IMG/VR virus record: IMGVR_UViG_3300011013_000018
Span: 1-51,145 of that record
Source: a virus
Length of the DNA: 51,145 nucleotides
Strand: one strand, 5' to 3'
The notes under the pieces were generated by a model that was not told the origin of the DNA, made no database searches, and was given only the letters and a program-made list of their open reading frames with translations. Shown here piece after piece: positions 2,865 through 16,543 of the stretch (positions are counted from its first letter, which is position 1; each line of letters begins with the position of its first letter). A program made the position numbers and the translations under genes.

Positions 2865-3770
2865 TTAAGCACCCGGTGAACCGAAAATACCTCTCCAGTC
2901 AGACCAACCGAAGCTGTATCTTTCCCTAGCTTTGTATTTAACGTTACCAGTTTCGAAATCACCTTCCATAGAAGTAGCTACTGCTGCTCTTTGGAAATGT
3001 TTCATTCCGTTAGGTACATCCGTTTTAATAAAGAATGCATCTGTATCAGTTAAGTAGTTGTTTACCACATAACCTTCCGGAACCATGCCCATACTTTTCA
3101 CTGCATTGATGTCATTATCAGCAGTTCCAGTTCTACCTGCAGACTTCATAAGTCTTTCAGCAGTAAACTGTAGTGCTGATGGGATGATCAACTTACGTGC
3201 TTTAGCAGCAACTTTTAGACCTCTATCATCAGTCAAAGCAGCAATATCAATTAATGCTTGCTCTAGTGATGTTTCGTTAAGGTCTGCAGCTGTTGTAAGC
3301 TCGTTTTTAACGTCTCCACCAGTAGTACCGTGGTCAGTTGCACAAAGTTCTTTTGAGTCACCACCAGTGTAAGAACTGTTAAACGCTCTGTTAAGAACAT
3401 TAGCAGATTTTACCTGTTTCGTGTGAGCCATAGAACGTGCAAGTGCTTTCGTATAACGAGTGCTGACTTTATCGTAAAGGTTATCCTCTACAGCCTCTTC
3501 AGTTATTGAGAAAGCTAATGCCACTGTCTCATGTGTGTAACGTGCTGTGAATGACTCAGAAGCAGAATCAAAGTTAACTGAAGTTCCTTCAGGCTTAACT
3601 GATGCTGCACCGAATCCTGATAACATAACTTCTTCTTCAAAAGCTCTGTCAGAATTCTCTGTGTCAAAAATTTCAGCATGTTGGTTTTCGTATTGTGCGT
3701 ACTCTAGTCCAAATAGTGCATTCAGACCAGGTTCCAACTCTTTAGCAAGTTGTGCTCTGTTTATAGCCAT
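2865..3770 (-). CDS. Major capsid protein (HK97 fold)
   Basis: The 301-residue protein resembles short Mu gpT-like / HK97-type coat proteins. It starts MAINRAQLAKELEPGLNALFG, carries a domain rich in acidic residues and Phe (EEEVMLSGFG, FDSASESFTARYTHETVALAFSITEEAVED), and a spine-helix-like RYTKALARSMAHTKQVKSAN. It ends with the compact beta/P-domain element YKARERYSFGWSDWRGIFG. It lies downstream of the scaffold, has AGGAGG seven bases before ATG, and is followed by a strong terminator, as expected for a highly expressed gene. No N-terminal protease delta domain is evident; the scaffold is separate. Confidence 0.85.
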   Translation of the reverse strand: MAINRAQLAKELEPGLNALFGLEYAQYENQHAEIFDTENSDRAFEEEVMLSGFGAASVKPEGTSVNFDSASESFTARYTHETVALAFSITEEAVEDNLYDKVSTRYTKALARSMAHTKQVKSANVLNRAFNSSYTGGDSKELCATDHGTTGGDVKNELTTAADLNETSLEQALIDIAALTDDRGLKVAAKARKLIIPSALQFTAERLMKSAGRTGTADNDINAVKSMGMVPEGYVVNNYLTDTDAFFIKTDVPNGMKHFQRAAVATSMEGDFETGNVKYKARERYSFGWSDWRGIFGSPGA

Positions 3771-4915: not shown

Positions 4916-5905
4916 CTACTCCTTCACGTATTTAGCGTATTCTTCTAATGGCACACCTAGTTTTTTAGCGATTGCAACCTGTGAGGATGTGAGTCTCACA
5001 GTTCGTTTTCCTGGTTTGGAAACTGATTTTACCGCAGGTGCCACTGTCTGGTCAACCTTTTTCTTGGGTTTTTCTGTTTTAAATTTATTTGGAAATTGTG
5101 CTCGAAGTCTACGGTCCACTTCCCCATAATATTCGTCAGTTCGTGGGTCATATCCTTCGTCTTCAACCAGTTTTCTATGAATTGCAAATGCCGTATATGT
5201 CATTGCTTCATCTTGACCAAACCACTCATTTGCTTCTGCCCATGCTGTTGCTTTTGGATCAGGTGGTGCAGCCTGTTGCTGTGGTGGTGTGTATACCGGT
5301 TGATTTGTTGTTTGTTTTTGCTCTTGAAAAGTTTTAGCTTGTTGCTCAAGAGCTTCTTTTTGAATTTTTGCTCGTTCAGCATTTAAAGTTGCTTTAGCTA
5401 AAGCACTCTGTGCTTCTGCCTGTATATCTACATTTTGTTCTTCAATTGCTTTTTTAAGTTTTATTTTAGCTTCCTCAATTTGAGCAACTGATTCGGACTC
5501 TAAACTTGAAACATAGTTTTGATTTGTTTCAGAATATTTTTTCTCTAAGTCCTCTGATTTTGTTTTCAAACCGTTAGCATATTTCAAAGCCGCTTCTTCA
5601 CGACGTTCAGACTCGCGTAATTTTCCAACTAACTTTGCTATCCTTTTTTGGACTTTGTCGCTGTACTCTTTATGCTCACCGTCGTCCGTTGGCCGTTGTT
5701 CTTCATCCTCTTGAACATCATCGCTGACGTCAGATTCCTCAACTGCGTTATCGGCGACAGTACTGTCTTGTAAAGATTTATCATCATTACTTTCCTCTTC
5801 TGCTGGATTTACTTTAGATTCTTCTAATTCAACATCAACGGAATCTCCGCTGGTGTCAATGGGAACTAGTTGTTCCTCTTTTACTTCTTTTTGTGCCTCT
5901 GGCAT
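4916..5905 (-). CDS. Capsid assembly scaffolding protein
   Basis: This 329-residue protein has a strongly acidic, low-complexity N-terminal third (EESNDDKSLQD, SDVSDDVQEDEE). A long charged coiled coil follows from about residue 80 to 195 (RIAKLVGKLRESERREEAAL, KIKLKKAIEEQNVD), then a Gln/Pro linker. The C-terminal region is basic (KPKKKVDQTVAPAVKSVSKPGKR). This acid-coil-basic layout and its place upstream of the coat gene fit a scaffold whose basic end binds coat protein. No protease Ser-His-Asp set is visible, so self-cleavage is not indicated. Confidence 0.75.
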   Translation of the reverse strand: MPEAQKEVKEEQLVPIDTSGDSVDVELEESKVNPAEEESNDDKSLQDSTVADNAVEESDVSDDVQEDEEQRPTDDGEHKEYSDKVQKRIAKLVGKLRESERREEAALKYANGLKTKSEDLEKKYSETNQNYVSSLESESVAQIEEAKIKLKKAIEEQNVDIQAEAQSALAKATLNAERAKIQKEALEQQAKTFQEQKQTTNQPVYTPPQQQAAPPDPKATAWAEANEWFGQDEAMTYTAFAIHRKLVEDEGYDPRTDEYYGEVDRRLRAQFPNKFKTEKPKKKVDQTVAPAVKSVSKPGKRTVRLTSSQVAIAKKLGVPLEEYAKYVKE

Positions 5906-5944: not shown

Positions 5945-6454
5945 TTACATATGTAGTATGTCAGTCGGATCCTGTATTATAGCAAGTATTTCATCATCAT
6001 TCAAGAGTCTTAAATCACCACCATCAATTTTTAATCTTGACCCCGCATAACGTGCAAAGATCACCCAATCACCCTTTTTGCACCATGGTCCATCAGGGAA
6101 CTTATTTGTATCGGCATACGCATCAGGGCCAGTGGCCAACACATAACCGCAAACGGTTGCTAATTGCTCTCTTTCACGTGCTTGATCAGTTAATATAATA
6201 CCGCCTTTACTCTTTTCAGCACCTAAATAAGGTAATATTAATACACGCCAACCAGTAGGTTTTGGTAGCTTTTCAGCTATATTTTCATCAATATTATCAG
6301 GATCAATGTACTTTGATTCCCTTTCACCATAAATATCTTCAACTTCTTGCTGTTTTTGCTCTATTTCAGCAGCAGTTTTGCCTTCTTCGTCTATTTTTGC
6401 CTTTTGTTTGCGTCTAGCTTTAGCCATGCGCTCTGGTAAAATTAAATCACTCAC
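5945..6454 (-). CDS. GroES-like co-chaperonin (Cpn10 domain)
   Basis: The first 60 residues are a charged helix absent from ordinary GroES. Residues about 64-161 follow the Cpn10 pattern: PKPTGWRVLILPYLGAEKS, a mobile loop GGIILTDQARERE (84-96; GroES has GGIVL), CGYVLATGP, KKGDWVIFARYAGSRLKIDGG and NDDEILAII. GroES caps the GroEL folding chamber through the Ile-Val-Leu loop; here Ile-Ile-Leu takes that place. Phage T4 gp31 is the classic precedent and is needed to fold its coat protein. Lying just upstream of scaffold and coat genes, this one is probably a coat-folding factor. The start codon is GTG, with GGAG seven bases before it. Confidence 0.85.
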   Translation of the reverse strand: MSDLILPERMAKARRKQKAKIDEEGKTAAEIEQKQQEVEDIYGERESKYIDPDNIDENIAEKLPKPTGWRVLILPYLGAEKSKGGIILTDQAREREQLATVCGYVLATGPDAYADTNKFPDGPWCKKGDWVIFARYAGSRLKIDGGDLRLLNDDEILAIIQDPTDILHM

Positions 6455-7292: not shown

Positions 7293-8159
7293 CTATAGCT
7301 CCGCCCTAATTTGTTTATATTTATCTAATATACTACCTATTCCAGATTTTGCAACACTCATTACAACAGTTGGTGATTCACTCATTGCCATACCATTACT
7401 TGGCATCATTCCGCCATGCATCATACCTACACGGCCACCTTGATTATATACTGGAGGATTGTGTACTGGAGGAAGCCAAGAATTTCCAATTTGTTGTCCC
7501 GTTGCACCTGTACTTAATGAAGAGGCTATACCTGTTGCAGGCACTCCTGTGGCAACATCTTGCGTTACTCCTTGTTGTGCCCCCGCCGTCTGTAAATAAA
7601 GAGGGTCAGCTGGTGTAAGTGCTCTGCCCCTATTATGTTCGCCTCCTCTATCTAGCTCTCCAGATAAGGACGGACTCAGTACTAAACCTCTGGTATCAAT
7701 ACCTGCAAATTTAGATAAGAGTCCCGAAAGACCAAAAGAAGGTAGTGCTCCAAATTGAGCAATTCTTTGCTGGTCATGCATTACAACATTTTTTTGTGCA
7801 AGTGGCCCTTTTTCAAAATTTTTAATACTTACCTCATTAGGATTAATGTCTTGTTCTTTTAATGTATTATAGAGCGATACAATATCTTTAGTCTTAATAG
7901 GCTTATTCTTATCTGCTTCCTTTTGCATTCTACTAACAAAACCCCATTTTTCTGCAATATCTGTTTCAGATGAGACATTAGTTTGATTACTAGGATGACC
8001 TGGACTCTCTGTATCAGAAGTTGGACCAAACATACCCTGGCCAACATTTGAACCCCCTGTAGTACCTTGACCTTGCCCGCCAGCAGGACCTTGAGCTGAA
8101 GCACCATGTCCTGGTGCCCCTGCCCTGCCTTGCCTACCTCTATCTCCAGGTCCAGCCAT
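7293..8159 (-). CDS. Gly-rich virion-region protein with GGRVGMMHGG motif
   Basis: The 288-residue protein has a collagen-like low-complexity N-terminus (MAGPGDRGRQGRAGAPGHGA, to about residue 40) and a helical middle (IAEKWGFVSRMQKEADKN, TKDIVSLYNTLKEQDINP). A Gly/Pro/Ser-rich linker leads to GGRVGMMHGG (241-250) and a helical tail (SILDKYKQIRAEL). Its start overlaps the portal stop by one base. The GGRVG motif recurs in three other proteins here. It is probably a minor virion or ejection-related component. No family recognised. Confidence 0.5.
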   Translation of the reverse strand: MAGPGDRGRQGRAGAPGHGASAQGPAGGQGQGTTGGSNVGQGMFGPTSDTESPGHPSNQTNVSSETDIAEKWGFVSRMQKEADKNKPIKTKDIVSLYNTLKEQDINPNEVSIKNFEKGPLAQKNVVMHDQQRIAQFGALPSFGLSGLLSKFAGIDTRGLVLSPSLSGELDRGGEHNRGRALTPADPLYLQTAGAQQGVTQDVATGVPATGIASSLSTGATGQQIGNSWLPPVHNPPVYNQGGRVGMMHGGMMPSNGMAMSESPTVVMSVAKSGIGSILDKYKQIRAEL

Positions 8160-10630
8160 TACTTAGCTCCTCCATTAGTGAACGCGTCTTTTATGTTGTC
8201 AGTTATTTTTTCAGCTTTGTCTAGTACTCTATGTTCAGCGTCCTTATCAAGTTTCTCAATAGCAATTGCTGATCGAATAGCTGTGGCCGCATTTTGCTGA
8301 TCAATTTTATCTTGGTCAATTTTCTCCTTATTTTCCATCTTCTCTTTTTCCACAGAGAGTTTTGCTTGAGACTCTTTTAACTGTCTGTCAGAGTCTCTAG
8401 ATTTAATGGCTAGTTCTAATTCTTTTAATTTAACTAAAGGATCTTCTTGAGCATCATTCACAAGTTCATCAATATTTTCCATGTATTCAGTAATTAATTC
8501 TGCTTGTCGTTTTGCGATAGCTTTTTGCATTTCCATCATTGTTTGTTGCATTACTTGTTGTTGCTGAGGAGACATTTGTTGTCCTTGTTGTTGCATTTGT
8601 TGTAATTGTGGAGCCATTTGTTGCTGTACTTCTTCTTGAGCTTTTAGTGATATATGTTGCATAATATGTGCCTGCGTATTTGCAAATGCTTGTGGATTAG
8701 ATTTAACAACAAGACTACCAAGTAATGCAATATGCGCTACAATATGGGCGTCATGATCTTGACCTGGAAATGCCTGCGCTGTCATTCCAGCAGTTAACTC
8801 AGCATTCTCTAGTGCAGGATCTTTTGGTTGCGGTTGAGGTGGTGGTGGTAATAGAGCTTCTACATTTTGCACACCCATTGCTTCATACATTCTTCTATAA
8901 GCCTCATGTATATTATGCATTTGTGGGGCAGCTTGTGCTAACTGCAACTGTTGTTGAGCAAGTGTTACTCTTTGTGTAATTGAAAAAATATTTGGATCAG
9001 ATACAGGTATTACATCGATACGTTGATCAAAATCTTGCGCTTTAATTGCTTGGTTACCACCAACAACTTGATATGGATAAACTGGTGGTAATGTGTCTGC
9101 AAATAATTGTGCAAGTAATTTAAATTCTTTTCCTTGAGCTGAGTGCATTCTTTTATGAATTGCAGACATAACTTTCATTCCACGCTCTAGTAAGGCCATC
9201 GTTGTGCCAACAGGATTAACTTCATTGCCTTCACCAAGTTTCATATCAGCAACAGCAGCAAATGCTTTGCCACTTTCAATTACAAAGCCAAGTAACTGAT
9301 AAAGTGTTCCGGAAGGTTCTTTGTACGGTAATGGTACTAAAGAGTTTCTAATTTCTCCTGAAGGAGCATCAACATCTCTAAATTCACCTGGTACTAGTGG
9401 TTGGTCGTCATCTCTAATTCTAAGTCCACGAGCTTTAAATCCTGCAGGTAAATTAGAAAGAGTTCCCGCATCAATAAGCTGACGTAAAATTGAAGTTGCA
9501 GATTTTGTAAGACCACCCAACATGTGGATAAGACCAAAGCCGTAAAAACCAAGTCCTGGTAAAAATTTATAATGTACAAAATATTGTTTTTTATTTTTAA
9601 GTTGATCTTGTTCGTTCCAGTTTCTTCTAATAGAAAGTATTTGTGACGAGCTCTCATCAATACTGACAATGTATGGAAGACTAATGCCAGAAGCTTCTCC
9701 TCCTTGTGTAACATCTTCATAACCAGGAAGATCTAAATCAGTGTGTATTTCTAAAATTGTGTGTATTTTATCTTTTGTATAAACACGTCGTGTTCCTTCT
9801 AGCTCCCCTATTTTTTCTTCGACTGCATCTGCTTCTGGTTCTGACGGGTCAAATAAATCCATGTCTCTATAAAATCCAGACGCTTGATACTTAAGTACAT
9901 CATTAGCTGGCATCTTAATAACATGAGTTATACGCATACATGTAAGCAGATCAGTTGCATCATAAGGAACAACTAAATCTTCTGAAGACACAAATTTAGA
10001 AACTGGTCGCCCTAGTTTATCATCAAAGTATACTTTACGGAACGCCGAACCTGATAAGGGAAGATGAAATAACATTTGATCAAGTTCGGGTTCGTATTCT
10101 TCCATGACATGAGAAAGTTGATAATTCATAAATTCCTTAACACGTTTTGATTGTGCTTCAACTTGTGGGTTTGCATCTCCCATTATTTGTGTTTTAACAG
10201 GGCCACCCGCAGGAAATAATTCTTTGTAAGATTGTGCTTGAAATTGTGTTACTGATTCTGCAAGCAATGGGTGAGATACACCAGACGCTCCTGGAAAAGG
10301 ATCAGTTCTGTCTTCATACTTCATTCCTAGAAGACCAAGTCCTTCAGCATAGGTTGATGACCAATCTGCACGTGAATCTTTATCTCCCTCGTATGCTTCT
10401 AATAGTTCATCAGCAATAACTGCTAAATCACCCTCGTCTAAAGTATCAGCTAAATTTGAGAAGTGTCCTTGTGGTGCTTGCATTTGATTACCAAATGTAA
10501 TCGTTGCCCCACCATCGGGATCAAGCTGTTGATCACCTTCTAATAGCTCTATTTCTTCTGGTGAAATATTTTCTGCCTCTAAGTCAAACTTCATTTGTTC
10601 TGTTAGTGGCATATCTTTATCTACTGGCAT
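8159..10630 (-). CDS. Portal protein (P22-like)
   Basis: At 823 residues this is slightly larger than P22 gp1 (725). The N-terminal part holds the portal core: a helix (VIADELLEAYEGDKDSRADW), PFPGASGVSHPLLAESVTQF, then stem and wing elements (SGSAFRKVYFDDKLGRPVSK, EDLVVPYDATDLLTCMRITH). Residues about 630-800 are Gln/Met-rich and then a long charged coiled coil (KLKELELAIKSRDSDRQLKE), resembling the C-terminal barrel of P22-type portals that reaches into the capsid. It forms the dodecameric vertex for packaging and ejection. It has an AAGGAG site and lies four bases after the preceding gene. Confidence 0.9.
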   Translation of the reverse strand: MPVDKDMPLTEQMKFDLEAENISPEEIELLEGDQQLDPDGGATITFGNQMQAPQGHFSNLADTLDEGDLAVIADELLEAYEGDKDSRADWSSTYAEGLGLLGMKYEDRTDPFPGASGVSHPLLAESVTQFQAQSYKELFPAGGPVKTQIMGDANPQVEAQSKRVKEFMNYQLSHVMEEYEPELDQMLFHLPLSGSAFRKVYFDDKLGRPVSKFVSSEDLVVPYDATDLLTCMRITHVIKMPANDVLKYQASGFYRDMDLFDPSEPEADAVEEKIGELEGTRRVYTKDKIHTILEIHTDLDLPGYEDVTQGGEASGISLPYIVSIDESSSQILSIRRNWNEQDQLKNKKQYFVHYKFLPGLGFYGFGLIHMLGGLTKSATSILRQLIDAGTLSNLPAGFKARGLRIRDDDQPLVPGEFRDVDAPSGEIRNSLVPLPYKEPSGTLYQLLGFVIESGKAFAAVADMKLGEGNEVNPVGTTMALLERGMKVMSAIHKRMHSAQGKEFKLLAQLFADTLPPVYPYQVVGGNQAIKAQDFDQRIDVIPVSDPNIFSITQRVTLAQQQLQLAQAAPQMHNIHEAYRRMYEAMGVQNVEALLPPPPQPQPKDPALENAELTAGMTAQAFPGQDHDAHIVAHIALLGSLVVKSNPQAFANTQAHIMQHISLKAQEEVQQQMAPQLQQMQQQGQQMSPQQQQVMQQTMMEMQKAIAKRQAELITEYMENIDELVNDAQEDPLVKLKELELAIKSRDSDRQLKESQAKLSVEKEKMENKEKIDQDKIDQQNAATAIRSAIAIEKLDKDAEHRVLDKAEKITDNIKDAFTNGGAK

Positions 10631-11272: not shown

Positions 11273-11749
11273 TCAACCCTTAAATACTTCCCACAACTTT
11301 TGAGCGGCGTCTCTGTAATATTGTTCAGAGGTCATTCCATCTACCTTTTTTCCTGTTTTACTATCAACAAAAGACCATGGATCGTTGTCCGTGAGTATAT
11401 ATTCAAAGTTTATTGTAAGCTCATCTCCTTTTTTAATCTCTTTTCTAGCGAAACATATCCCTAAATAATATAGCATAGAAGGGTCAAACGAATGATTAAT
11501 ATACCCATCTTCTCGAACCTCATACCCATAAACAAATAAATCATCTAACCAACGACAGCACGTCATTTGAAATACGTGATCATCTGCTTTATGAATACGG
11601 TAGTCTAGATATTCTTCTAAGGTCTTCGTACCATGATCTACGTCAGGACACCACAACGCAATAACACTTCCTTTCGGAATATCTTCACCGGCAAATAAAC
11701 CTAGGCCGGCGATATCAGACTTCTTGATGTCTGTCTTGTATCTCAGCAT
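11273..11749 (-). CDS. SET-domain protein, putative lysine methyltransferase
   Basis: A 158-residue stand-alone SET domain. N-terminal DIAGLGLFAGEDIPKGSVIA (12-31) is the first SET block. GYINHSFDPS (82-91) matches the pseudoknot motif NHSxxPN, with Ser where Asn is usual. IKKGDELTINFEY (105-117) matches GDELTxxY, where the final Tyr is catalytic. SET enzymes transfer methyl groups from S-adenosylmethionine to lysine side chains. No post-SET cysteines are present, as in other small bacterial and viral SET proteins. It overlaps the double-Hint gene by 35 bases, so it is translationally coupled to it. The substrate is unknown: the Lys-rich proteins nearby or a host protein are candidates. Confidence 0.8.
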   Translation of the reverse strand: MLRYKTDIKKSDIAGLGLFAGEDIPKGSVIALWCPDVDHGTKTLEEYLDYRIHKADDHVFQMTCCRWLDDLFVYGYEVREDGYINHSFDPSMLYYLGICFARKEIKKGDELTINFEYILTDNDPWSFVDSKTGKKVDGMTSEQYYRDAAQKLWEVFKG

Positions 11750-13337
11750 TTACTTTCTTTCTCATCATTTCTATGTATGGCTCCCAGTCTTTTTGAGAAC
11801 CAGTTAAGTAGTCACCAAACTCAATGCCTTGTACCCAGATTCTATTGTTTGTTGTCTCGAAACAATACACAGGTTCAATGCGATCAGTTAATATTCCATG
11901 CTTACTATTTTGTACCTCTACCATTTCGTTGCCTTCACGAACTAAATGTGTTCCAGAAACATACACACCTTGGTAGTTATAAATTTTTGTTGATTCAAAT
12001 TCTAGTTTTGCAATAACTCGTCCGCCTTTAGTTTCTTCTCCAACACGAATACCAGTAATTTCTTTTGTTGTACCATCAGCCATATCGATTGGTGTGCCTT
12101 CAACGAAGCAACCACCACTACCGCCGCCTTTATTATGTACAAGGTAGCCGTCTGCATAGTAAGTTCGGTCTCCGTTCAGTATGAAGTTATAGACAGTATC
12201 TTCAGCGTTTCCATCGTGCTCTTCTATACTATCAACTTTAACGTCGTCTTTTCCAGTAATTATAATATCCCCAACGTCTAGTTTTTTAACATCTAGGTCA
12301 GTTTCTTTTGCTGTATCTTCTGGGTTAATAGATTTCCAACCTTCCAGTGTTTTGAATGGGTGTTCAGAAGTTACGAAGGCATCTCCGTTATTGATAGAAT
12401 ATAATTTTCTATCTCCTAGTGGAGGATGATCATAGTCAGTTACCATATTAACACCCTCTTCACCTTTGACTTTATCTCCTATCTCAACTTCTTCAATCTT
12501 CTTCAATGTACCATCTTCCATAGTTACAAGTGTGCCTGCAACGAAACAACTGCCGCCAATACCTGGTGGTCTTAAGAGGTATTGTGGGACGTATTGTGGG
12601 ACGTATTGAATTTGTGGCTGTACATTTTGTGCTGCTGCAAGTTGTTCTCGAAGTTCTGCAAGTTGTGCTTGGAGCGCCGCCTCTTGTGATTGTGCTTGTG
12701 AGGAAGCGGAAGCAGCAGATGCTTGTTGTTCGGCAAGAGCTGCAGCATGCTGCGCTTGTGCTTGTTGCATAGCTTCTGCTCTCGCATCTATTTGTGATTG
12801 ATATGTTGATGAAAGATTTCCTTGTTGCTCAGCAAGTCTTGCGTCTAGTTGTTCTTGCGTTAACGTTCCTGCGTCTTGACCAAAAATATCTTGCAGCATT
12901 GGGTATGTATCATCTCCAGTGTAAGTTAAAGCATCAAGATTTCTACGACCAAAATCAGCACTAGGTCCATATCCATAGTTGTATGGAATAGGTACATTCA
13001 TTGGATTGCCAGCTTGTTGTGTCATCGCTGCTAAATCAGGCCGTGGTGGTAATAAACTTTGTAATCCTAAAGCATCTAAATCTGGAGTTGAAGTTGGGTT
13101 CTGTTGAGCGGATAATGATTGTAGTCCTAGTACAGAAGCAACAGTAGGTAGTCCTCCTGTTGATCCTCCTGTTGATCCTCCTGTATTCATTCCCACACGA
13201 CCGCCATCGGCCCTTTCAATTCCAAACTCTCTGTACAAGTCTAATCGAATTATCTCTGCTAAATCATCATCACCAGAAGTAATTGCATCATCTAACAATT
13301 GAATAAGCTGTGATGGGCGACTACTAGACCAACTCAT
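11715..13337 (-). CDS. Virion-region protein with two tandem Hint (intein-like) domains
   Basis: The 540-residue protein has an N-terminal helix, GGRVGMNTGGSTGGSTGG (45-62), an Ala/Gln coiled coil (about 158-238) and a QYVPQYVPQY repeat. Hint 1 runs from Cys264 (CFVAGTLVTMEDGT) through TSEHPF (323-328) to YYADGYLVHN (393-402). The junction residue is Lys403, not Cys/Ser/Thr. A short KGGGSGG linker leads to Hint 2 from Cys410 (CFVEGTPIDMADGT), with SGTHLV (461-466) as block B and FGDYL (507-511) at the end. The first resembles bacterial intein-like domains, which usually cleave rather than splice when the +1 residue is not a nucleophile. The second ends like Hedgehog-type Hint domains. No homing endonuclease is inserted. 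The protein likely self-processes, releasing its coiled-coil part. Confidence 0.85.
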   Translation of the reverse strand: MSWSSSRPSQLIQLLDDAITSGDDDLAEIIRLDLYREFGIERADGGRVGMNTGGSTGGSTGGLPTVASVLGLQSLSAQQNPTSTPDLDALGLQSLLPPRPDLAAMTQQAGNPMNVPIPYNYGYGPSADFGRRNLDALTYTGDDTYPMLQDIFGQDAGTLTQEQLDARLAEQQGNLSSTYQSQIDARAEAMQQAQAQHAAALAEQQASAASASSQAQSQEAALQAQLAELREQLAAAQNVQPQIQYVPQYVPQYLLRPPGIGGSCFVAGTLVTMEDGTLKKIEEVEIGDKVKGEEGVNMVTDYDHPPLGDRKLYSINNGDAFVTSEHPFKTLEGWKSINPEDTAKETDLDVKKLDVGDIIITGKDDVKVDSIEEHDGNAEDTVYNFILNGDRTYYADGYLVHNKGGGSGGCFVEGTPIDMADGTTKEITGIRVGEETKGGRVIAKLEFESTKIYNYQGVYVSGTHLVREGNEMVEVQNSKHGILTDRIEPVYCFETTNNRIWVQGIEFGDYLTGSQKDWEPYIEMMRKKVNAEIQDRHQEV

Positions 13338-13657: not shown

Positions 13658-14110
13658 TTATTTCACCCTTCCTCCTCGTTTATAAATTCGTCCACCAAAT
13701 CTTTTTCGTGGTATAGGACTTTCCTTGCCGCCCGCAAACGCACTAATTGCTCCTGCTGCGCCTGCAGTGCCTGCAGCACCAAGTCCAATTTTTTTCCCTA
13801 TTCCCATATGAGGCCCAGTCACCACATCATCCATTCCTTCCAAAACAAAGCCCAAATCTTTTTTCTTAGGGGCACCAAAAGAAATTCCTGAGGTCACATC
13901 AGGGTGCATATCTCCTGCTACCTTCTTTTTTGATAGTTTCTTTTTCTTCTTCGGTCCAGGACCAGACTTCTTCTTTTTTGTCAACTTCCTTTTCTTCTTC
14001 GGTCCAGCGGAAACTTTTTTTGGTTTCTTTGGCGTCTTCGGAATCTTTGGGATCGTTGGAATCTTCGGTGGTTTTTTAGGAATTTTGACCTTGCTAATAA
14101 TTTTTACCAT
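13658..14110 (-). CDS. KIPK-repeat protein 3, with GGRIYKRGGRVK tail
   Basis: The third of three adjacent relatives. The 150-residue protein starts MVKIISKVKIPKKPPKIPTI and continues with KIPKTPKKPKK repeats and basic blocks (GPKKKRKLTKKKKSGPGPK). A Gly/Ala-rich hydrophobic helix lies at about 107-126 (IGLGAAGTAGAAGAISAFAG), then GGRIYKRGGRVK at the C-terminus. Lys-Pro repeats of this kind behave as extended polyproline-type cationic arms, so DNA or membrane binding is plausible. This is inferred from composition; no family is known to me. Confidence 0.6.
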   Translation of the reverse strand: MVKIISKVKIPKKPPKIPTIPKIPKTPKKPKKVSAGPKKKRKLTKKKKSGPGPKKKKKLSKKKVAGDMHPDVTSGISFGAPKKKDLGFVLEGMDDVVTGPHMGIGKKIGLGAAGTAGAAGAISAFAGGKESPIPRKRFGGRIYKRGGRVK

Positions 14111-14112
14111 GA

Positions 14113-14559
14113 CTATTTACCCTTCTTAGGTTTAGGTTTTAGTGGTGGTTTTTTTCTTCGGCCTTCTCTCATAATAGCACGGTAAATCTTAAAGGCTCCT
14201 TCTTTATCGCCCATGTTGTATAAGTGAGCAGCTTTGAAAGCTTTGCCTCGATTTGGTTGAGAGATGCCTTTAGTTCTTTTTTTAACTTTTCTTTGTACAG
14301 CAGCTTTATTACCCCAATATTGTTTTACGGCAGCAGTCTTTTCAGCCCCACTCATGTTCTTAAACGCTTTTGTTTTTGTCGTCTTTGCAAACGACTGAGT
14401 TACAGGAGCATTAGCAGGGTTAGCTGTTTTAGGTCCGGGTTTCGTTTTGCCCGGAGGTGTCTTAGGACGAGAAGCTTTTGGTTTTGACTTCGGCTTCTTA
14501 GGAATCTTTGGGATCTTTGGAATCTTCGGTGGCTTCTTAGGAAGCTTAACTTTAACCAT
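14113..14559 (-). CDS. KIPK-repeat protein 2
   Basis: A 148-residue basic protein. The N-terminus MVKVKLPKKPPKIPKIPKIP (1-20) is nearly identical to its upstream neighbour. A Pro/Lys/Gly linker and then a helical basic region follow (MSGAEKTAAVKQYWGNKAAV, KAFKAAHLYNMGDKEGAFKI). It ends KPPLKPKPKKGK. The C-terminal half differs completely from the two relatives, so the repeat arm looks like a shared tag on unrelated bodies. Its ATG overlaps the stop of protein 1 (TAATG). Confidence 0.6.
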   Translation of the reverse strand: MVKVKLPKKPPKIPKIPKIPKKPKSKPKASRPKTPPGKTKPGPKTANPANAPVTQSFAKTTKTKAFKNMSGAEKTAAVKQYWGNKAAVQRKVKKRTKGISQPNRGKAFKAAHLYNMGDKEGAFKIYRAIMREGRRKKPPLKPKPKKGK

Positions 14560-15023
14560 TACCTATTCTTTTGTCGCTCCCTGATCTCAGCTGCGGTTAG
14601 TTTCTTGTGTCTTACCACTTTACCTTTGCTGTCTCTAACAACACCTTTTGAATATTTAACTGCTGGATCTAAAGATAGTTTTCTTTTCTTTTTAGGTCCA
14701 GAGCGTAGTCCTTTTTTACCGTAAGGTCGTGTAGGTTTCTCATAAGGTTTATATGGTTGCTTTCCACCACGTCCAGGTTGTTCGTTCTTAGGAGAAGAAG
14801 CAGCAGCATCTTTATCGCGATTCTTCATATACAAACCAATACCTGTTCCTAGTCCAGCGGCTACAACGCCACCTACAATAGCTTTTTTAGAAGGACCTTT
14901 TACTGTTCCTGGAGGCTTTTTAGGTTTAGTTACTTTTGGTTTCTTTGGCGTCTTCGGAACCTTCGGAATCTTCGGAATCTTTGGGATCTTCGGTGGCTTC
15001 TTAGGAATTTTAATTTTTACCAT
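14559..15023 (-). CDS. KIPK-repeat protein 1, with one membrane-like segment
   Basis: First gene after the large terminase. The 154-residue protein starts MVKIKIPKKPPKIPKIPKIP, then KVPKTPKKPKVTKPKKPP. A hydrophobic Gly/Ala segment follows (AIVGGVVAAGLGTGIGLYM, about 48-66) and then a basic, disordered tail rich in Pro, Tyr and Lys (KQPYKPYEKPTRPYGKKG). A good AAGGAG site precedes the ATG. A cationic arm plus a membrane-like helix would fit a protein ejected with DNA, which is inference. Confidence 0.6.
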   Translation of the reverse strand: MVKIKIPKKPPKIPKIPKIPKVPKTPKKPKVTKPKKPPGTVKGPSKKAIVGGVVAAGLGTGIGLYMKNRDKDAAASSPKNEQPGRGGKQPYKPYEKPTRPYGKKGLRSGPKKKRKLSLDPAVKYSKGVVRDSKGKVVRHKKLTAAEIRERQKNR

Positions 15024-15034
15024 AATAGTTCTCC

Positions 15035-16543
15035 TTAATAATAGACCCGTGGTCTTATGTCAACAGGTTCGTCCTCGTAGTCCATACGTAATTGAATCAA
15101 ACCTGATTGTCTGAACCTTAACAGAGATTGGGTTACTGTGTCAACATAATCATCGTGTTCACCGAAAGGAAATGCTGCACATTCTTCAATGACTTCTTCA
15201 GCGAACCGTCTATCCTTAGGATAATACACCATACCTGACTCAAACATCGGAGCAATAGAGTTAACTCTGGAGTGCTTATCATTACCTCTAGATGGAGTAT
15301 AATTAGTTACAGGAATGCCCGTGCGCCGTAGTTCGTCGGACAATGGCATACCACTTGCTTTCGCTTCAATTAACACCATCTCTGGTTCCCAATAATTATA
15401 CTCTTGTAAGGCAATCTCCTTTAGTTCAGGGAACTCCCACCGCCCACGACGGGCATCAAGTAAAATGAGCGCTGGCCGTGCACCGTCGGGCGTGAACACT
15501 CCCCATGTGGTAATAGCACTGAAGTCAGCAGTTTCTTTTTTACTGTATGCAGTATCATAACTTTGGATGATGTAATGTAAGTCAGGAATTTCTTTTGGTG
15601 CCCACTCGTTCCACCATTCACGTTTAAGTATTGCACCTTCCTCGGACGTTGGCCGTTGCATCCACTGCGCGTTCCATTTTGTAATAGCTAAAGATGCTTT
15701 AACTGATTCAAGTTCAGATAACTTCCAATACTCCGGCCATGTGGGTGTACCGCTATCCATCACTGCTGGAAACTCTACAACTTCCCATTGATCGGATTTT
15801 GGTTCTGTTTGTGCAGAAATAAGTTTTCCTGTTAAATCAATTGTACTCCATCTTGTCATAACTAATACAATTGCACCGCCGGGCTGAAGCCTTTGACGAG
15901 GACCAGATGTATACCACTCATAAGCATTCTCCATTGCTGTTTCTGATAACGCATCTTGCTCCGAGTGTGGATCATCAATAATTAATAAATCCGCACCACG
16001 GCCCGTGATGGCTCCACCAACACCAGCCGCAAAATACTCTCCCCCCTCACTGGTATCCCATCTACCTGCAGCCTTAGAATCTGCTTGGAGTCCCGTCTCT
16101 GGAAAAATATCTTTGTATTCTGATGAATCGATTAATTGTTTTGTTTTACGACCAAATCTCTGTGAGAGCTCTGCAGTGTGCGACGTTTGAATTATCTTGG
16201 TCATCGGATTACGACCCATGATAAATGCCGGTAACATAAATGATGCAAATTCAGATTTTGTATGACGTGGTGGCATATTTACTATGAGCCTCTTTAGGGT
16301 CCCATTTGCAATTTTATTAAATTTTTCCGCTATGATTCTATGATGGGTCCCTTCCACGAATCCCGGCCAAACGACTTTAACAAAAGACATGAAATCTAGC
16401 TGTGCTTCTGCGTTTAATTTTGATTTTTCGTTTTGCTGATAGAGCTGAAAGAATCTTTTTTGTTCGTGGGAGGTCATACTGTCCAAAAGTTTTGGTTCAG
16501 TAATGATTTCTTTTAGTCTTTCTTCTAAACCTAATTTACTCAT
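15035..16543 (-). CDS. terL: Terminase large subunit
   Basis: The 502-residue packaging motor has an N-terminal ATPase with Walker A MPPRHTKSE (90-98), Walker B LLIIDD (186-191) and coupling motif VLVMTRWS (about 227-234). The C-terminal RNase H-like nuclease shows Asp330 (QSYDTAYS), Asp340 (ETADFSAITTWG), Glu393 (LIEAKASGMP) and the DDYVDT group (464-469). It cuts concatemers and pumps DNA through the portal. It is first in the leftward late operon, with a candidate promoter at 16613-16641. The small subunit gene lies about 7 kb away on the opposite strand. Confidence 0.95.
   Translation of the reverse strand: MSKLGLEERLKEIITEPKLLDSMTSHEQKRFFQLYQQNEKSKLNAEAQLDFMSFVKVVWPGFVEGTHHRIIAEKFNKIANGTLKRLIVNMPPRHTKSEFASFMLPAFIMGRNPMTKIIQTSHTAELSQRFGRKTKQLIDSSEYKDIFPETGLQADSKAAGRWDTSEGGEYFAAGVGGAITGRGADLLIIDDPHSEQDALSETAMENAYEWYTSGPRQRLQPGGAIVLVMTRWSTIDLTGKLISAQTEPKSDQWEVVEFPAVMDSGTPTWPEYWKLSELESVKASLAITKWNAQWMQRPTSEEGAILKREWWNEWAPKEIPDLHYIIQSYDTAYSKKETADFSAITTWGVFTPDGARPALILLDARRGRWEFPELKEIALQEYNYWEPEMVLIEAKASGMPLSDELRRTGIPVTNYTPSRGNDKHSRVNSIAPMFESGMVYYPKDRRFAEEVIEECAAFPFGEHDDYVDTVTQSLLRFRQSGLIQLRMDYEDEPVDIRPRVYY

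Follow-up and report, generated by a model that had tools for sequence, protein, structure and literature searches.

Tandem Hint domains, putatively autoprocessing, encoded in the packaging and portal block of a marine-type phage

What might two Hint domains, set one behind the other in a single protein, do amid the packaging genes of a phage? This question is raised by IMG/VR record IMGVR_UViG_3300011013_000018, from a marine-type phage, whose 51,145 bases constitute the window analyzed here. Inteins, Hedgehog and bacterial BILs are the settings in which Hint domains have been studied. The initial annotation of the window placed two of them, beginning at Cys264 and Cys410, in one open reading frame, joined by a seven-residue Gly-rich linker and preceded by a Gln/Ala-rich N-terminal part with a GGRVG motif. 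All of these features were recovered, the two cysteines at exactly those residues (Table 1); coding lies on the minus strand, and the plus strand over the same interval is closed in the frame of the ORF.

Profile search and structure prediction had been put forward in that annotation as checks, the lack of a Hint fold being the adverse outcome. Both domains are instead predicted to fold as Hints, and the Pfam Hint models Hom_end_hint (E 6e-10) and Vint (E 1e-8) match the 540-aa protein. The top Pfam match, AXH (Ataxin-1, E 2e-10), was dropped, since structural comparison identifies the domain as a Hint and ranks Ataxin-1 much lower. Residues 52-540 also occur on a second contig (L002) at 100% identity, and the Hint1-Hint2 tandem was found in at least eight other IMG/VR contigs. 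Purifying selection on Hint1 and Hint2 is clear, with dN of about 0.10 in both Hints versus 0.25-0.27 in the N-terminal body when this record is compared with L003, L005 and L014; dS in the same comparisons is above 1.3 or saturated, which makes the ratios rough but leaves the constraint evident. Because of the Pfam matches, the recurrence among contigs, the stronger conservation of the Hints and the predicted fold of both domains, we take the tandem on the minus strand to be confirmed and not a product of chance.

Table 1. Features of the Hint locus and its surroundings (positions in the window; residues of the Hint protein)
Feature	Position	Strand	Remarks
Hint protein ORF, 540 aa	11715..13337	-	N-terminal body + Hint1 + linker + Hint2 + C-terminal helix
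N-terminal body, residues 1-263	12549..13337	-	helical start, no cysteine; kept in L003-L008, L012, L014
GGRVG, residues 45-49	13191-13205	-	
Gln/Ala-rich stretch, residues 156-240	12618-12872	-	Gln+Ala = 52%
Hint1, residues 264-402	12132..12548	-	Cys264, block B T323-S-E-H326, H401-N402; putative type-A BIL-like
Linker K403-GGGSGG-409	12111..12131	-	seven residues; Lys403 = invariant +1 residue of Hint1
Hint2, residues 410-510	11808..12110	-	Cys410, block B S461-G-T-H464, terminal F-G-D509-Y (507-510); phage C-terminal Hint class
Tail behind Hint2, residues 511-540	11718..11807	-	mostly one predicted helix; TGSxxDWEPHxExxxxxxN kept in Hint2 family
SET-domain (lysine methyltransferase-like) gene	11273..11749	-	Pfam SET 1.5e-9; overlaps Hint ORF end by 35 nt
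Portal protein	8159..10630	-	context; neighborhood conserved with Hint2 genes in related phages
Terminase large subunit (TerL)	15035..16543	-	context
Three consecutive small Lys/Pro-rich proteins	13658-15023	-	PKIPKIPK-type repeats near start
Cpn10 / GroES-like co-chaperonin	5945-6454	-	extended at the N terminus; flanked by the portal and scaffold-like genes; belongs to the conserved block
329-aa protein	4916-5905		coiled-coil scaffold by appearance
Major head protein	2865-3770		

The first of the two domains most closely resembles the type-A BILs. Modeled alone with AlphaFold, Hint1 reaches a pLDDT of 94.9 and superposes on BIL2 of Tetrahymena BUBL1 with Z 19.7 (rmsd 2.0 over 134), on 2lwy with Z 16.5 and on Hedgehog with Z 14.5; this good model is that of the isolated domain, since within the tandem model Hint1 comes out at low confidence (pLDDT block means mostly in the range 35-75), so that this model does not place the two domains relative to each other. 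Its best profile matches among solved structures are BIL2 (E 2.2e-13) and then the Clostridium BIL (1e-12). Like BIL2 (6y75, 6tmm) and the Clostridium thermocellum BIL (2lwy), Hint1 combines the predicted Hint fold with Cys1 (Cys264), TxxH and a terminal His-Asn that is not followed by Cys, Ser or Thr, within about 140 residues. It differs from them in residing in a phage protein, in its invariant +1 Lys, in standing in tandem with a Hint of another class, and in an identity of only about 25%. Because of the conserved residues, the predicted fold and the identity of its best relatives, Hint1 is, on sequence and model, a type-A BIL-like domain.

Cys1, the Thr and His of TxxH, and His-Asn-Lys are shared among the Hint1 relatives (28 aligned rows). 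As one search pattern had contained HNK, the +1 Lys could have been an artefact of the search; we therefore counted only domains selected by the block-B motif F[VT]TS[ED]HPF, which is independent of the +1 residue, and found Lys in 21/21, domains that share common descent and are not 21 independent events. In nine Hint1 relatives the protein ends with this Lys (HNK-stop), leaving a one-residue C-extein; among them is a tail protein of 2,021 aa (Pfam Phage-tail_3). Giant tail-type proteins ending in such a Hint, with a single Lys as C-extein, were seen at L047:376-6438 and L048:1-6438. From the HN-Lys junction the initial annotation had expected cleavage instead of splicing. Type-A BIL domains do mostly cleave, but splicing can occur through attack of the liberated amine on the N-terminal thioester (review PMC4031507), so that the dominance of cleavage stands whereas the denial of splicing was too strong. 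For BIL2, formation of Lys isopeptide bonds has been reported (PMC8616854).

The predicted structure of Hint2 is also a clear Hint; against BIL2 it scores Z 14.9, against inteins about 11-14 and against Hedgehog 1at0 13.0 (101 residues). Model residues 161-262 align with Hedgehog 258-402, which places Cys410 on Cys258, and Asp509 (model residue 260) is matched to the final Asn both in PI-SceI (454) and in the Mtu RecA intein (440). Judging by the end points of the Hedgehog alignment (402 on model residue 262), Asp509 would lie on Hedgehog Cys400; inteins ending in Asp are cited in the reference list of PMC4031507. The terminal FGDY had been called Hedgehog-like, which by alignment holds for its position but not for family: FGDY is a phage motif, and Pfam Hint (Hog) PF01079 matched one of 14 Hint2 sequences, at E 0.033 and short of the cut-off, giving no assignment to the Hedgehog family. 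Like Hog-Hint (1at0), Hint2 is a C-terminal Hint behind an N-terminal body and is followed by a short extra region; unlike Hedgehog, it has Asp509 for Cys400, Ser for the block-B Thr, and what appears to be only a 30-residue helical tail in place of the sterol-recognition region. The lack of intein block G (no His-Asn) within a predicted Hint fold is as in type-B BILs. Public profiles see the domain weakly, Hom_end_hint matching 14/14 aligned sequences, with the copy in this record matched in block A only.

Relatives of Hint2 are encoded in 144 IMG/VR stretches, of which 80 were kept. Among 47 distinct segments, Cys1 is present in all 47, as is block B [ST]-G-x-H (S-G-x-H in 46, T-G-x-H in one), mostly a Ser variant of T-x-x-H. 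A terminal-position Asp is found in 45/47, and nearly all end in Gly-Asp-[Tyr/Phe] without His-Asn. The 20 residues before Cys1 average 54% Gly, with Gly at -1 in 37/47, and the parts upstream fall into ten clusters without detectable mutual similarity. With the patterns used, a search of 84,980 cellular genomes returned no full-length match, only short ones, nearly all to block A, and tblastn against cultured phages gave no match at E 0.01. Hint2 thus represents a divergent C-terminal Hint class that is apparently restricted to phages. On the sequences, its position at the ends of many unrelated phage proteins suggests a reusable way to release or attach virion parts. In the mapped contigs, Hint2 genes adjoin portal, terminase, nozzle or ejection genes, in many cases lying next to the portal gene, before or after it; in L088 the Hint2 gene directly follows the portal gene of another phage type, and in L060 it lies between genes for a virion structural protein and a DNA-ejection protein. 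One contig, IMGVR_UViG_3300030107_000322, bears two different Hint2 genes (L050:774 and L106:4843).

A recent duplication of one Hint can be rejected as the origin of the tandem: Hint1 and Hint2 have little in common outside block A and are of different classes. L027 carries both domains; where it has Hint1, L008 and L094 show just a Gly-rich linker, although their coiled-coil end is similar and their Hint2 almost unchanged (95% identical between L027 and L008). The tandem occurs on two Hint2 lineages, requiring two changes (a single change sufficed in 0/200 bootstrap trees), and the Hint1 copies of the tandems group together with support 90/89. Given its presence or absence among near relatives, the two Hint2 lineages and the grouping of its copies, Hint1 is thus an optional cassette that has been gained, lost or exchanged. 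Tandem Hint arrays are recurrent among phage proteins: three Hints with short linkers were seen in single proteins at L244:6092-7930, L198:2774-8131 and L037:2881-5667, and two in one protein of L233.

The order of transcription is TerL, the three Lys/Pro-rich proteins, the Hint gene, the SET-domain gene, a 198-aa protein, portal, Cpn10, the 329-aa protein and the major head protein, and this position within the packaging and portal block is an indirect sign that the Hint protein may be located in the virion. The portal protein is 48-51% identical to those of HTVC023P, HTVC027P and 023Pt_psg01. HTVC023P-type pelagiphages have the same packaging and head block, with TerL, portal, GroES, scaffold-like and capsid proteins detectable at 28-74% identity, and GroES belongs to their published core (PMC9599517), a survey whose text does not mention Hint or intein. 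Unlike this record, the cultured members HTVC023P and HTVC027P have no Hint in the packaging block; neither do cultured DSL-LC04 and most portal relatives, in a survey that used partial contigs. We therefore rejected the Hint gene as a core virion gene; it is accessory. The SET gene is about 86% conserved in tandem relatives but was not found beside L007, L008, L027 or L094, and it was rejected as an obligatory partner. Speculatively, the Lys/Pro-rich proteins might be DNA-binding proteins or substrates of SET or Hint.

Together, these observations lead us to lean toward a reading, based on sequence and models, in which both domains are active in autoprocessing, Hint2 as a conserved release module and Hint1 as a BIL cassette within the linker. 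The self-cleaving or self-crosslinking virion component suggested by the initial annotation would be plausible. The predicted fold, the intact catalytic residues, the constraint, the modularity and the gene context are shown here; activity, cleavage sites, the order of steps and the location in the virion are inferred. The encoded precursor would process itself: Cys410 would attack the carbonyl of the preceding Gly409 in an N-to-S acyl shift assisted by Ser461 and His464, and the Gly409 thioester would be resolved by water or another nucleophile, the upstream part leaving Hint2 and its helical tail as in Hedgehog-type C-terminal Hints. Hint1 would form a thioester at Ser263-Cys264, and cyclization of Asn402 would cut before Lys403. 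The outcome at Hint1 may be separate cleavage with some religation through the freed Lys403 amine, which would restore a Gly-rich linker resembling that of relatives without Hint1. Maturation would leave the N-terminal body ending in a short Gly-rich stretch, and this product would probably belong to the head, the neck or the interior of the virion.

Several considerations count against the autoprocessing reading. One is the low-confidence prediction of Hint1 within the tandem model; another is the accessory status of the gene, which implies that the product is not a core virion component. A further one is that, if Hint1 only cleaved, the N-terminal body would be lost to Hint2; if it religated, the restored linker would allow Hint2 to act afterwards. 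Because cleavage by Hint1 alone removes the substrate of Hint2, yet both Hints are conserved in one lineage, these data hint at some religation or a mixture of products.

An alternative outcome, which we consider unlikely, is covalent attachment, in which one or both Hints would transfer the N-terminal body to an amine, so that it becomes linked through an amide or isopeptide bond to Lys403 or to lysines on virion partners; they would serve as a C-terminal self-attachment module for variable N-terminal bodies. The isopeptide chemistry of BIL2, the closest solved relative, is consistent with this, as are the persistence of the +1 Lys even as the final residue of a protein and the variety of N-terminal bodies in front of a constant C-terminal Hint, which suits an attachment signal. 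The Lys-rich proteins encoded next door offer a candidate acceptor only, such genes not being shown to accompany Hint genes generally; the +1 Lys, among domains related by descent, could be retained on other grounds, and Hint2 lacks a counterpart of it. Less probable still would be a sortase-like system, in which the constant C-terminal Hint and the HN-Lys class of Hint1 thioester-activate the Gly ends of varying bodies and link them to lysines of the particle, the +1 Lys serving as resident acceptor.

It is also rather improbable that Hint1 is a small splicing element, a mini-intein-like passenger that removes itself quietly and leaves only Hint2 to matter to the phage. Its patchy presence in a tolerant Gly-rich linker, the grouping of its copies across two Hint2 lineages and the capacity of type-A BILs to splice (PMC4031507) would fit such a passenger. 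Phage inteins, such as those of terminase or RIR1 of phiCbK (PMC3556154), likewise place a Hint fold inside phage proteins, but those inteins are inserted into conserved sites of enzymes and removed by splicing, whereas Hint1 and Hint2 sit in or behind Gly-rich linkers. Hint1 is followed by Lys403 instead of the nucleophilic Cys, Ser or Thr of a canonical intein, has no homing endonuclease, and is inserted in a variable linker of an accessory protein, outside any conserved site of an essential one; its relatives at the ends of tail proteins have a one-residue C-extein, which a splicing parasite would not need. That the Hints have lost their reactivity and act as folded spacers or as binding domains, as the end of Hint2 without His-Asn might suggest, is very improbable given the invariance of Cys1 and the block-B His across widely diverged Hint1 and Hint2 sets and the strong suppression of non-synonymous change.

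Hints on phage proteins are not new as such, as public databases already label some of these proteins Hint-containing. Among cultured phages, the tail-fibre-like genes for gp028 of Achromobacter phage JWF and QPB11246 of Providencia phage PSTNGR1 carry a Hint on a virion-region protein, as here, but these Hints are single, lack a terminal His-Asn, do not belong to the Hint2 class and are only weakly similar to Hint1. The literature searched, which included few subscription journals, yielded no paper on BIL or Hint domains of phage virion proteins and no description of the phage-specific C-terminal Hint class, the HN-Lys rule or the optional tandem. The initial annotation also did not include the invariance of the +1 Lys, the wide distribution of Hint2 as a C-terminal module or the optional nature of the Hint1 cassette. 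What is noteworthy is a Hint class at the ends of many unrelated phage proteins near portal and tail genes, beside which a BIL2-like class with an invariant +1 Lys can be inserted. If active, the Hints would constitute a general phage module for self-processing or self-attachment of virion parts, with the HN-Lys domains as candidate compact protein-ligation tools.

Outside the Hints, the motif GGRVG, GGRIGFQ or GGRMGYQ is repeated in numerous unrelated proteins whose genes lie between those of TerL and portal (this record, L117 near 5770, L037 and L111), and GGR arrays are present in L037. At L111:1046 the N-terminal helical segment of the Hint protein is fused directly to a homologue of the 198-aa neighbor, without a Hint, and the N-terminal piece is therefore modular as well.
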